Source: Hyphomicrobium denitrificans ATCC 51888
Lineage (GTDB): Bacteria; Pseudomonadota; Alphaproteobacteria; Rhizobiales; Hyphomicrobiaceae
Assembly: GCF_000143145.1 (NCBI RefSeq)
Contig: NC_014313.1
Coordinates: 3,286,001 to 3,350,000, forward strand
Reading direction: 5' to 3'
DNA: 64,000 nt
Position numbers and translations under genes: made by a program
The notes under the pieces: generated by a model
Seen by the model: the letters and a program-made list of their open reading frames with translations, nothing else
What the model was told of the DNA's origin: nothing
Databases searched by the model: none
In this document: positions 1 to 3,306 of the stretch, in pieces
Numbering within the stretch: position 1 is the first letter of the stretch
How the letters are laid out: each line of letters starts with the position of its first letter

Positions 1-2
1 AA

Positions 3-440
3 CGCGGCGGCGGCGTGCGCAGCTATCACGTGGCAGGTAGCACCGTCTCCGAGGTCATTCCGATTGTGAACGCCAACGTTCGCAAAGAAACTTTCATCAT
101 GACCGACAGCGCCCAACTCTATAAGCGCCAGCTTTCGAACTTCGCCAGCCATGATCGGGTAGACCACAGCGCCTACGAATATGTCCGTTACGCCGAAGGC
201 GCTCCGACCATTCATACCAATACCGTTGAAGGGTACTTCTCAGTCTTCAAGCGCGGCATGCGTGGCACCTACCAGCATTGCGCAGAGAAGCACCTGCATC
301 GGTATCTGGCGGAGTTTGACTTCCGTTACAATGCTCGCATCGCGTTGGGCGTGGATGATGCAGCACGCGCCGAAAAGGCGCTTAAGGGCATCAAGGGCAA
401 GCGTCTGACTTATCGAAAAGCTGGTACAGCCGAAGCTTAG
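3..440 (+). CDS. IS1595-family (ISXO2-like) transposase, 3' part, cut by the window edge
   Basis: The frame is open from the left edge, so only the C-terminal ~146 residues are visible. They look like the end of the ISXO2-like DDE domain: a TDS motif (Asp at base ~105) fits the second catalytic Asp, and an H-x-N-x-V-E-G-Y-F block (bases ~216-240) followed by KRGMRGTYQH is typical of the IS1595 C-terminus with its Asn/Glu pair. The protein would cut and paste its own insertion sequence. It is followed by a 9-bp-stem palindrome and a convergent unknown gene. Whether the element is intact cannot be judged, because the 5' half and left terminal repeat lie outside the window. Family assignment is confident; the exact IS name is unknown. 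Confidence 0.85.
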   Translation, partial: RGGGVRSYHVAGSTVSEVIPIVNANVRKETFIMTDSAQLYKRQLSNFASHDRVDHSAYEYVRYAEGAPTIHTNTVEGYFSVFKRGMRGTYQHCAEKHLHRYLAEFDFRYNARIALGVDDAARAEKALKGIKGKRLTYRKAGTAEA

Positions 441-451
441 CAAGAGGCGGA

Positions 452-476
452 CCAAGCCCCATAAGTAGGGGCTTGG
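452..476. terminator. Palindrome between convergent genes, probable bidirectional terminator
   Basis: CCAAGCCCC at 452-460 pairs perfectly with GGGGCTTGG at 468-476 around a 7-base AT-rich loop. It lies 12 bases after the transposase stop and 7 bases before the stop of the convergent gene at 483. There is no long T-run, so termination is inferred. It could also be part of the right end of the insertion sequence. Confidence 0.5.
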
Positions 477-482
477 CAATTG

Positions 483-983
483 CTAATGGGCGCCATTCAC
501 CTGCGCTGGCGACACCGCTTCGGGTTTTCGCCAATTCCTTCCAACCTTTTCCACGTCCCCGGAAATTTTGCATCTGTGGTCTAAGGCCGACCAAACATTG
601 GCAGTCGGATTTTTCGTATTCAGCACGAAGCCTGATTCCAAGAGCAGATCGGTCACCTGCCTTGTCGAAAGGCCTTGCTTGTTCGCATGCCGTTCGACGA
701 TTTTCGCGCACGCCTCGCCAATTCCATTGTTACCAGTTGCCGTCCTGGCTTGCGGCGTTGTCGCTATCAACGCTGGCGCAAGAGGAGCCGTTTTGGCGAT
801 TTCTCGGGACGCAACCGTTGGAGGGGCTGTGTTTTGCTTAAGATGCGCTGGTGGTGTCGGTACGGAGACTGGGCCATAGATGCCCTCTAATCCCTTGATG
901 ATACGGTCGAGTTCATCCCGTCGAGCGCGCAAATCTGCAAGCACAGCGGCGGAACTTGCTGTTGAAATTGACTCGCTGCCCAT
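483..983 (-). CDS. Hypothetical protein, possible winged-helix C-terminal domain
   Basis: I do not recognise a named family in this 166-residue protein. Residues ~1-40 (LADLRARRDELDRIIKGLEG) look like a short coiled coil. Residues ~40-90 are Pro/Ala/Thr-rich and probably disordered. Residues ~90-150 carry a compact helical pattern (QGLSTRQVTDLLLESGF... NVWSALDHR) ending in KVGRNWR, reminiscent of small winged-helix modules found near restriction or regulatory proteins. This is pattern resemblance only. It starts at ATG 983 and runs convergently toward the transposase fragment. Placement in an accessory stretch suggests it is horizontally acquired. No function is assigned. Confidence 0.55.
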   Translation of the reverse strand: MGSESISTASSAAVLADLRARRDELDRIIKGLEGIYGPVSVPTPPAHLKQNTAPPTVASREIAKTAPLAPALIATTPQARTATGNNGIGEACAKIVERHANKQGLSTRQVTDLLLESGFVLNTKNPTANVWSALDHRCKISGDVEKVGRNWRKPEAVSPAQVNGAH

Positions 984-1015
984 TGGCTGAGCCCTCCATC
1001 TTGTAGTACGGAAAC

Positions 1016-1043
1016 GGGACGGGCGGCGATTTGCGCCCGTCCC
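1016..1043 (+). terminator. Strong hairpin, terminator-like
   Basis: GGGACGGGCG (1016-1025) pairs perfectly with CGCCCGTCCC (1034-1043) around an 8-base loop and is followed by only three T. It lies about 30 bases upstream of the minus-strand start at 983 in a stretch with no convincing gene. It is one of three hairpins within 190 bases. Confidence 0.35.
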
Positions 1044-1059
1044 TTTGCCCTATTGGGTG

Positions 1060-1076
1060 CCCGCGAGGGCGGGTTT
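1060..1076 (+). terminator. Short GC hairpin followed by TTT
   Basis: CCCGC (1060-1064) pairs with GCGGG (1069-1073) over a 4-base loop, followed by TTT. It is a weak terminator candidate, the second of three hairpins between 984 and 1317. Confidence 0.25.
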
Positions 1077-1160
1077 ATGGTTTGGCCGTCATTCTCACCT
1101 CCGCTTGAAGCTGCTGGGATGGGATGGTGCGCTAGTTGGGCCCGTAACAGGGCTCACCAG

Positions 1161-1197
1161 AGGCGACTTGGGAATCCAACCTCCCTTGTCGCCTTTT
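1161..1197 (+). terminator. Two-step hairpin with trailing T residues
   Basis: AGGCGAC (1161-1167) pairs with GTCGCCT (1188-1194). After a TT/TT internal loop a second stem GGGA/TCCC closes over an 8-base loop. The stem ends in a run of four T. The rest of 984-1317 holds no gene I can support, so which transcript this would end is unclear. Confidence 0.35.
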
Positions 1198-1317
1198 GCT
1201 TATGGCCAAGCACAGATCAGACGGCAATCGACGCCTTGGGGTTTTACACCGGAATCTGGTGGCCCTGATTTCGTCTGATGCCTTGACCGCCAAATAAAAC
1301 AGACTCAGGCTGGTGCG

Positions 1318-1500
1318 ATGGCAAAACCAAAAAGCTCTGATTCGAAATCAAGCGCGCAGCAACAAAAGTTCCTCAACGCCGCGCGAGAACTCGGCTGCTC
1401 TGAAGATGATGAGGCGTTCGAGACGGCCCTGAAGAAAGTCGCTTCAGCGCGCGTGCAGAAGCCAAGCAACAAACCAAAGAAAAAACCTTCGGCATCGTAG
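1318..1500 (+). CDS. Small lysine-rich hypothetical protein
   Basis: This is a 60-residue frame starting at ATG. The N-terminus is Ser/Lys-rich. A central acidic helical segment (FLNAARELGCSEDDEAFETALKKVA, quoted here only as residues ~18-44) is followed by a basic tail full of Lys and Pro. Such charge segregation is seen in small nucleic-acid-associated or antitoxin-like proteins, but I recognise no family. It is oriented with the sce7726-family gene and ends 78 bases before that gene's ATG, so the two could share a transcript unless the palindrome at 1520 marks a new promoter. Coding status is moderately likely. Confidence 0.5.
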   Translation: MAKPKSSDSKSSAQQQKFLNAARELGCSEDDEAFETALKKVASARVQKPSNKPKKKPSAS

Positions 1501-1519
1501 TGCCGTGACTCTACTCAGG

Positions 1520-1534
1520 CATGATAAAATCATG
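1520..1534. promoter_or_regulatory. Operator-like palindrome before the sce7726-family gene
   Basis: CATGAT-AAA-ATCATG is a perfect 6-bp inverted repeat in an AT-rich pocket, 44 bases upstream of the ATG at 1579. The setting fits a repressor or autoregulator site, but no cognate regulator is identified. Confidence 0.35.
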
Positions 1535-1578
1535 ATAACCCAGCCAGAGACTATCTCTGGGGGGTGGGCTCAATAATT

Positions 1579-2682
1579 ATGCGCGATAGCGATGTGCGCG
1601 AGGCGCTTCGTGCGCGATTGGGGGCCGAGCACGCTGGTGCTTCGGATACGCGTCTCGTTGAAGAGATGGGCATTTGGTCTGGCACCGTACGCATTGATGT
1701 TGCCGTTATAAACGGTGAGCTAAGCGGCTACGAACTGAAGAGCGACAGCGATACCTTAGAGCGACTTCCCGCTCAGGCCGACATTTACGGCAAGGTTTTC
1801 GACCGCATGACCCTCGTTGTCGGTAGTAAGCACGCAAAGAAAGCGCTCAAGATTATTCCCAAGTGGTGGGGATGTTTGGAAGCGCGGGTATCCGACAATC
1901 GTCTTGTGTTGAAGCACAAACGAAAAGCTCGGATTAATCCAGGCCGGGACGCTAAGATCATCGCGCAGCTTCTTTGGAAAGAAGAAGCATTAGCGATTCT
2001 TGACTTTCACGGGCTCGCAGGCGGGTGGCGCTCCCGCCGCTCTGCCGAGATTTTGGAGCGTCTTGTGGAGCGGATACCATTTGCTTCACTCACGGCGCAT
2101 GTTCGCGCCGCGCTCAAGGCAAGGCCGTCGTTAGGGCAACGTGTGGCGTGTGATCTCAATATGCCGATTGAGATTCAAGCCAACCCAGACGCCCGGGTTG
2201 CCAACCGAAAAACTAGGGTCGGCATGCATGGCGTCGATCTGACCGTCCGCCCAGCAATGCTTAAGAGCATGCCGCGGCTTCAAGGCGACTATTTGCTTGG
2301 CATAGCTCCGGAGCTGTTGGCTCATGGGCATAGCGCCTGGACCTTTGATCTTGACGCCGCGGAACACGGCGAACTTCTCGGGCAAACTGTACTTGGCATT
2401 AATAGGCACAAGAGCCTCGATCTCGATCGGAGGGCCAGGAGCGATACTGCCGTAATCGCCGAAATCCAGTCTGTAGGGAAGGCCGTGCGTGGTGAGAGTG
2501 CGCCAGAGGATAAATTCGTGCCTCGGCAGCATGGTTCGGCCAAGGCTAAAGCCCGAAAGCGTAGTCGGAATCGAGCAACCAATCAGGGTAACGGTTCTCC
2601 AAGAACTGCCGCTATGAAGGCTGGCAAATGCATTCGCAACAGAGACTCCAAGGGCCGCTACGTTAGCAACGCTGCCACCTAG
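1579..2682 (+). CDS. sce7726 family protein with PD-(D/E)XK-like core and an unusual C-terminal extension
   Basis: Residues ~1-190 match the sce7726 family pattern as I know it: an N-terminal MRDSDVREAL segment, then R-I-D40-V-A-V, G-Y-E52-L-K54-S-D-S-D-T, and later KWWGCLEA and LLWKEEALAIL. D40...E52-x-K54, with Gln66 after it, is the arrangement of PD-(D/E)XK nucleases, so nuclease activity is a reasonable inference but unproven. I chose ATG 1579 over an in-frame GTG at 1564 because family members begin MRDSDVR and a G-rich stretch lies upstream. The remaining ~175 residues run on the antisense of the convergent gene and look unlike the family; natural members are, to my memory, near 200 residues. 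This suggests a lost stop codon. The partner gene is at 2131-3174 on the other strand. Confidence 0.75.
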   Translation: MRDSDVREALRARLGAEHAGASDTRLVEEMGIWSGTVRIDVAVINGELSGYELKSDSDTLERLPAQADIYGKVFDRMTLVVGSKHAKKALKIIPKWWGCLEARVSDNRLVLKHKRKARINPGRDAKIIAQLLWKEEALAILDFHGLAGGWRSRRSAEILERLVERIPFASLTAHVRAALKARPSLGQRVACDLNMPIEIQANPDARVANRKTRVGMHGVDLTVRPAMLKSMPRLQGDYLLGIAPELLAHGHSAWTFDLDAAEHGELLGQTVLGINRHKSLDLDRRARSDTAVIAEIQSVGKAVRGESAPEDKFVPRQHGSAKAKARKRSRNRATNQGNGSPRTAAMKAGKCIRNRDSKGRYVSNAAT

Positions 2683-3174
2683 ATCGACTATGAGATCTGT
2701 ATCTGATGCGGGGTAGGGCCATTTGGGCACCCACGCGCTCGCAGCCGTCATTTCGGGTAGAGAAATCCTCAACCCGATACCCGAACCGCTAGCAGCCGCC
2801 ATCTTCTTCGCGGCGACTTGGTAATTGACCGGCGAGGTCAACTCGACCACCGGAATAATGTTCAAGCCGCCTACACTTGCCGCTTTTGCGATGTCGATCA
2901 GAGGATGTGCGGAGCCATCCACCAGCTGTGATGCGTCCAAGTACACAGGCTCTACGCCCCAGGCATCAGAGACTTGCTTTGCAAAGAATTCGGCCGCCGT
3001 TAGCGGCGTGTGACCCTTCTTTGGTTTTGTTGCTCGCGGGCCGCTGTATTGCTTCGGCCAAAGTTGAATGAGGGGAGCTACGCCGCGTCCGCCTGTAGCG
3101 CTGACGTTCAATAGCCCGGTTCTGTCGTTGAGCTTCCATCGAAGAACAGGCATGTATCGAAATTGCTTGGCCAT
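2131..3174 (-). CDS. Beta family protein (sce7725-type), function unknown
   Basis: This 347-residue protein opens with YMPVLRWKLNDRTGLLNV and continues through PLIQLWP, VEPVYLDASQL and LNIIPVVEL, the start-strand-strand pattern of the beta-protein family (after phage T4 beta) and of the sce7725 proteins that often neighbour sce7726 genes. The repeated beta-alpha units (VYLD, IPVVEL, GIGLRISL, DLIVDLGG) suggest a TIM-barrel-like fold; no catalytic residues are evident. It starts at ATG 3174 and converges on the sce7726 gene, sharing 552 bases on opposite strands. The overlap lies in its C-terminal half (GPPIEIEALVP... RHALKHCWADG), which reads as real protein, so this strand is the likelier coding strand there. 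Family call is moderately sure. Confidence 0.7.
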   Translation of the reverse strand: MAKQFRYMPVLRWKLNDRTGLLNVSATGGRGVAPLIQLWPKQYSGPRATKPKKGHTPLTAAEFFAKQVSDAWGVEPVYLDASQLVDGSAHPLIDIAKAASVGGLNIIPVVELTSPVNYQVAAKKMAAASGSGIGLRISLPEMTAASAWVPKWPYPASDTDLIVDLGGSVANVAALGVSVANAFASLHSGSSWRTVTLIGCSIPTTLSGFSLGRTMLPRHEFILWRTLTTHGLPYRLDFGDYGSIAPGPPIEIEALVPINAKYSLPEKFAVFRGVKIKGPGAMPMSQQLRSYAKQIVALKPRHALKHCWADGQIDAMHADPSFSVGNPGVWVGLNLNRHIEITRHTLP

Positions 3175-3219
3175 AATCCCCCCAAGAAAACGCCCCCCGG
3201 CTTGTTCGTCGCCGGGACT

Positions 3220-3238
3220 TATATCGGTACGCGATATA
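3220..3238. promoter_or_regulatory. Operator-like palindrome before the beta-family gene
   Basis: TATATCG (3220-3226) and CGATATA (3232-3238) form a perfect 7-bp inverted repeat around 5 bases, 45 bases upstream of the minus-strand start at 3174. The arms resemble -10 boxes, so it may combine a promoter with an operator. It differs from the palindrome at 1520. Confidence 0.35.
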
Positions 3239-3306
3239 ACCGATTCTTGGGTGTGTTAAAAGGATAATCCCGTGAGGCCGTAAAGAACAAACAAAGAACG
3301 TCTCTG

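Follow-up and report, generated by a model that had tools for sequence, protein, structure and literature searches.

We report that a 3,895-bp transposon of the insertion sequence (IS) family IS1595 in Hyphomicrobium denitrificans ATCC 51888 carries a convergent gene pair, beta and cII (sce7726), whose homologues belong to anti-phage systems, and that a LexA/SOS-type box lies just outside one of its ends. The window (the whole stretch of DNA analyzed, 64,000 nucleotides) covers positions 3286001 to 3350000 of one 3.64-Mb contig. The explanation that we favor, and regard as reasonably probable, is that of a transposon-borne beta-cII defense module that lacks the gop gene of the related phage P4 locus and travels as the passenger of an IS1595-family transporter IS, perhaps coupled to the SOS response. 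The anatomy of the transposon-borne pair was observed directly and is close to certain. The features concerned are listed below by window position; negative positions lie to the left of the window, in the numbering of the surrounding locus (L006) where indicated, and lengths of proteins are given in amino acids (aa).

-552 to 440 (L006 7448-8440; in the window 1..440), + strand: IS1595 transposase gene, 330 aa, complete
483..983, - strand: 166-aa open reading frame (ORF), no family match; homologues occur in the IS1595 elements L178 and L185
1318..1500, + strand: gene for the 60-aa basic accessory protein of the IS1595 subgroup
GTG 1564 or ATG 1579 to stop 2682, + strand: cII/sce7726 ORF (NF033832)
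1579..2130, + strand: cII/sce7726 core, predicted PD-(D/E)XK nuclease domain with E29, D40, E52, K54, Q66, and Y70
2131..2682, + strand: continuation of the cII ORF antisense to beta (read-through), of variable length among relatives
2131-3174, - strand: beta gene (PF14350), full length, encoding 347 aa with a predicted TIM-barrel fold
3249..3272, - strand: right terminal inverted repeat
3273..3280: 8-bp target duplication TGAGGCCG, right-hand copy
3285..3299, - strand: LexA/SOS-type box GTTCTTTGTTTGTTC, GTTCN7GTTC, starting 12 bp beyond the right end of the element

Both genes were assigned to their families by profile search. The cII protein matched NF033832 with 166.3 bits (curated cut-off, 70), and beta matched the Beta_protein family PF14350 with 123 bits (cut-off, 27) over positions 1 to 338 of the 342 in the profile; the PADLOC labels for the pair are "cll" and "PD-Lambda-2_C". 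The two genes are convergent, as had been noted for sce7726 and beta/sce7725-type genes in an earlier reading of the sequence alone (the initial annotation); they lie tail to tail, with an overlap of 552 bp. That annotation considered both families uncharacterized, which they are not: they are those of cII and beta of phage P4, homologues with published anti-phage activity, and the P4 record annotates the two as "sce7726 family protein" and "beta family protein," respectively. The D40...E52-x-K54 signature that it had pointed out is present (numbering from ATG 1579), and all three residues are invariant across an alignment of 48 sequences. In confident structure models, cII matches PD-(D/E)XK folds, with D...E-x-K on an alpha-beta-beta-beta-alpha-beta core, and beta matches TIM barrels, with conserved acidic residues at the strand ends of the predicted barrel, in line with the expectation of a nuclease-like protein and a barrel-like partner. 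On motifs and predicted fold, cII is a putative PD-(D/E)XK nuclease, from which we infer nuclease activity.

The boundaries of the transposon were obtained by scanning for inverted repeats between the sequence left of the transposase and that right of beta, and automatic delimitation reproduced them. The element corresponds to L006 7378-11272, that is, window positions -622 to 3272 (1..3272 within the window), and contains the transposase, the 166-aa ORF, the 60-aa ORF, cII, and beta. Its 24-bp terminal inverted repeats are imperfect (GGCAATTATCCATTTGACAAACCC on the left, from L006 7378 on, and CGGGATTATCCTTTTAACACACCC on the right, given as the reverse complement), and its 8-bp target duplication is perfect, with TGAGGCCG on both sides and the left copy (L006 7370-7377) outside the window. 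The transposase is single-copy in the genome, and its in-window part exceeds the cut-offs of PF12762 and NF033547. With a transposase, terminal inverted repeats, and an 8-bp duplication around passenger genes, the element belongs to the IS1595-family transporter ISs. The initial annotation had recorded an IS1595 fragment; the gene is complete and is cut only by the window edge. Of its placement of the pair in accessory or mobile DNA, mobility stood and accessory DNA in general gave way to an exactly bounded transposon with the pair as cargo, and the two small genes that it saw beside the pair are the 60-aa and 166-aa ORFs. A 4,018-bp element in Mesorhizobium sp. WSM4311 (L019; transposase identity, 61%) has matching repeats and the duplication TATCACAA, and its cII and beta agree with those of the window element in order and orientation. 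L017 provides a third case of a transposase near a cII-beta pair; there, the contig stops beside cII and the ends could not be delimited.

Pairing was followed in 82 cII loci (72 from genomes and 10 viral). Beta was found in 61 of them, as a single piece in 55 (a few of these truncated at the end of a contig) and in fragments in 6; all 55 single-piece betas were convergent with cII and overlapped it by 9 to 336 bp (median, 59), which bears out the proposal that the two families neighbor each other. No beta was detected in 21 of the 82 loci, mainly from divergent Clostridia and Hymenobacter, two of them on contigs that end just past cII. When loci were sampled through beta (n = 19), the profile recovered beta in 14, with a convergent cII in 9 and none in 5. 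An M78/HigA-like gene was located directly upstream of beta, on the same strand, in 21 of 81 beta loci, and HigB was present in 12 of the 81. A convergent cII accompanied 18 of the 21 M78-bearing loci (14 of those 18 found via cII) and 4 of the 7 that were found through beta. Beta-cII is thus seen in three settings: by itself, together with gop (as in P4), and in HigB-M78 loci. Among the neighbors of other copies (148 of 213 ORFs scanned, 59 loci; PADLOC used without a control), PD-Lambda-2_B was matched 11 times and PD-Lambda-2_A 6 times, in addition to SIR2, methyltransferase, and restriction models. As a separate observation, PD-lambda-2-like operons that end in a convergent cII occur in part of L036-L058 and in L218, L219, L221, L223, and L237.

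Relatives of the transposase were sought within the same family and order, yielding 79 distinct delimited elements: 35 in a first set (1,952 to 7,100 bp), 34 in a second (35 rows, with L301 twice), and 10 in a third (L338 being doubtful). Transposase loci without delimitable ends were dropped (8, 7, and 6 in the three sets), as were L201, treated as the same contig as L019, and two distant transposase matches inside L208. Each of the first 35 elements has at least one ORF of at least 60 aa between the transposase and the right repeat. DUF3800 was the family match of 12 of 117 cargo ORFs, and beta, methyltransferases, HigB, helix-turn-helix (HTH), PIN, NYN, and Clp protease families were also found; PADLOC matches of the cargo include PDC-M04A, cll, PD-Lambda-2_C, PD-Lambda-5 A and B, and methyltransferases. 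In a control of flanking ORFs, DUF3800 occurred at most once in 115 (it was not among the 25 most frequent families listed); these were 115 of 117 drawn ORFs, the other two being cargo of a sibling element and removed. Of these two ORF sets, PADLOC was applied to the cargo.

Judged by local profiles, the 60-aa protein recurs among these elements: 40 of the 70 element rows contain a match (first set, 33 of 35; second set, 7 of 35), and in all 40 the gene is on the transposase strand. Outside the elements, the profile gave 4 matches in 667 kb, at least 2 of which are in a neighboring element of L186. The window protein itself had no Pfam, NCBIfam, PADLOC, or PHROG match, and a homology search with it returned only itself. 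It is a candidate transposition or target-choice factor. In L186, two IS1595 elements nearly abut, with TGACCTTT shared between them and the outer copy of one duplication off by one base.

The box beside the right end of the window transposon has the form GTTCN7GTTC, which we take to be the LexA consensus of the host's class. A strict box was located at exactly 12 bp from one end in 11 of the first 35 elements (7 right and 4 left). The offset was noticed in this set, so that only the later sets, a holdout of 44 elements, test it; there, a strict box occupied the offset in 2 of 44 (1 of 34 in the second set and 1 of 10 in the third), against about 0.002 expected by rate-based arithmetic. Over all sets, this amounts to 13 of 79 distinct elements, all 13 with the box in the same orientation relative to the element. 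By chance, one given offset is expected to hold a strict box 0.003 times over 140 flanks (first 70 rows), and only 4 other strict boxes were found within 110 bp of any end in those rows. The palindromic variant GTTCN7GAAC appears at the same offset in two cases (L019 and L199; one mmcB-like site), which are not counted in the 13.

Eight of the 13 strict cases lie in the promoter region of a gene that is presumably yifB/comM (Mg-chelatase/ChlI family matches in four of four tested); the others are L180 (ssb), L182, L211, L317, and L328. In five genomes of the genus, including that of the window, the element lies upstream of yifB; the five target duplications differ from one another, and every one of them is perfect. 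The box was kept at all 14 empty same-genus yifB sites that were checked, 46 to 61 bp upstream of the yifB start (14 of 15 loci; L274, with an unmapped yifB start, was omitted), and no transposase was found in the upstream stretch read there (up to 2.5 kb). GTTCN7GTTC is thus a conserved promoter box at this site, putatively under LexA control. In the genome of the window, lexA is preceded by a strict box at about 122 bp, and recA only by a box with one mismatch.

It is conceivable, at somewhat below even chances in our estimate, that this IS1595 subgroup uses LexA/SOS boxes as a landing address with base-pair precision, 12 bp away and with the box always oriented alike, and so delivers defense cargo (beta-cII among it) and toxin-antitoxin cargo beside SOS-controlled operators; the selector could be the transposase, the 60-aa protein, or LexA itself. 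Two limits apply: 8 of the 13 strict cases represent one locus (yifB), and more distant transposases, such as those of the later sets, rarely show the 12-bp spacing, the pattern being found mainly in closer relatives. A further recurrent insertion site, shared by five elements (L186, L193, L195, L204, and L278), lies ahead of rpsI and has GGTAN6TACC at offset 11 (the S9 family was confirmed for one of the five), and conserved promoters may therefore be the more general target. In the literature searched, no report of LexA-box targeting by an IS was found. For part of this IS family, another target rule is suggested by AGG-N8-CCT sites, which were seen in 20 of 70 element rows (e.g., L299 and L303), largely with the inverted repeat CCTAATTATATAC. 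We also considered a hybrid SOS promoter with the box as -35 and the inverted repeat as -10 element; the -10 match was 3.64 at box ends versus 3.61 at others, a promoter scan found none, and the idea stays speculation.

A defense role of beta and cII is probable by homology, and the two-component defense or conflict system that the initial annotation envisaged is supported in this sense, by analogy with gop-beta-cII and PD-lambda-2. In the mechanism that we propose, cII would be a metal-dependent PD-(D/E)XK nuclease directed, upon infection, at nucleic acid of the phage or of the cell, with beta as an infection sensor or a restraint on cII. As with P4 and PD-lambda-2, the outcome would be abortive or direct anti-phage defense. 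The transposon separates yifB/comM from the SOS-type box of that gene, so that a LexA-type operator adjoins the end of the element from which beta is read inward. The SOS response might then switch or boost the module: relief of the operator by infection or DNA damage, a step that we consider doubtful, would allow joint action of the two proteins, with cleavage of nucleic acid by cII.

Two prophage-like regions of the same genome, 99.93% identical over 11.95 kb, also carry cII. Their cII domain is intact, and they are without beta, the accessory gene, or the transposase; the designation as prophages follows from the apparent nature of the neighboring ORFs. The regions and the segments that they have in common with the window are as follows.

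L007 4487-5403 (contig position ~148.5 kb): orphan cII region
L008 4434-5350 (contig position ~1,598.4 kb): orphan cII region
946..1237: segment 1 common to both prophages, contiguous there with 1548-2172, at 99.3 to 99.7% identity
1548..2172: segment 2 common to both prophages, comprising the cII domain plus the final 42 bp of beta

Because these last 42 bp of beta remain, the prophage copies are, to judge from their sequence, descendants of a beta-bearing form. They also bear on the unusual length of the window cII, in which the NF033832 match spans residues 6 to 188 only (to about position 2128), the remaining ORF being antisense to beta. A genuine long antisense gene at the C terminus of cII was considered and rejected since the extension is not conserved in relatives, and it was treated as read-through. 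Relatives overlap by 9 to 336 bp, and the two prophage copies encode 202 aa from the same ATG, so that the long C terminus is probably not a real domain. Such a read-through might mark the pair as decayed, nonfunctional cargo in this genome. It is longer than the overlap in all 55 single-piece pairs, and an antisense frame of 552 bp was reached by only 0.74% of 5,000 synonymous shuffles; however, beta is full length, the invariant cII residues are kept, and the ends of relatives vary as well, making decay improbable.

Alternatively, the pair could act in the manner of a toxin-antitoxin system, with cII as the toxin and beta as the antitoxin, which would keep the transposon or prophage in place and have only a secondary effect on phages. 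This would be in keeping with further IS1595 cargo from HigB, HTH, and PIN families and with the toxicity of P4 gop without beta, as stated in the part of the P4 study that we consulted (PMC9122126). The two prophages with cII and without beta speak against it, since an unrestrained cII toxin would be lethal there unless the single chromosomal beta restrains it, as do the cII loci without a detectable beta and the convergent, separately transcribed arrangement, which by general knowledge is unusual for toxin-antitoxin pairs. In addition, PD-lambda-2C, a relative of beta, is described in the portion of the source used as required for defense and dispensable for neutralizing the PD-lambda-2 toxin (PMC9519451). 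We consider the toxin-antitoxin explanation unlikely. Lower still, at a very small probability, we place a service of cII and beta to the mobile element itself (e.g., in its excision or replication or in the choice of a target): clean ends are seen in related IS1595 elements with different cargo as well, and sections of the P4 report describe gop, beta, and cII as nonessential and gop-beta-cII as protective against lambda and P1 (PMC9122126). A gop-less beta-cII defense module carried as a passenger remains the explanation that we prefer.

These results link two families, conserved but poorly described, with anti-phage genes of the P4 type, and they show that beta regularly has cII as its convergent partner, PD-lambda-2-like loci included. 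They reveal a small transposon as a carrier of the beta-cII pair and suggest how such defenses may travel. If the spacing reflects targeting, it would be a mode of site choice for mobile DNA without a counterpart in the literature searched, and SOS-box targeting, if true, would suggest how cargo defenses could come under DNA-damage control.

Among known systems, gop-beta-cII of satellite phage P4 resembles the window pair in having beta and cII homologues that are convergent, tail to tail. In P4, gop and beta share one strand, with cII facing them, and the locus resides on a satellite, with cII and beta 27 bp apart as annotated; here, the genes overlap and form a gop-less pair on a chromosomal transposon. 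A P4 gop query returned its self-match in L012 at 1e-85 and no match in the window locus, and gop was not found elsewhere in the genome in a search without a positive control. PD-lambda-2 (HigB, HigA-peptidase, and the beta-like protein C) is similar in that the window beta matches PADLOC PD-Lambda-2_C (PDLC03983, 2.1e-18). It differs by HigB and HigA-M78 upstream of beta, neither of which was found in the window locus by the profiles that detected 21 M78 and 12 HigB genes, and its published three-gene description, in the part available, makes no mention of cII (PMC9519451). ISCR elements under SOS regulation likewise link LexA with an IS; the LexA box described in the available portion of that work lies inside the element and controls the transposase (PMC13393415), whereas the window box belongs to the host DNA, at a constant distance from the element. 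Transporter ISs, which carry passenger genes, have been described before; the accessible part of the source (PMC3129680) cites the Siguier 2009 paper on IS1595 for them. The window element shares with them the transposase domain, the inverted repeats, the 8-bp duplication, and the passenger genes, and it is set apart by its beta-cII cargo, the conserved 60-aa gene, and the fixed 12-bp spacing to a LexA/SOS-type box.
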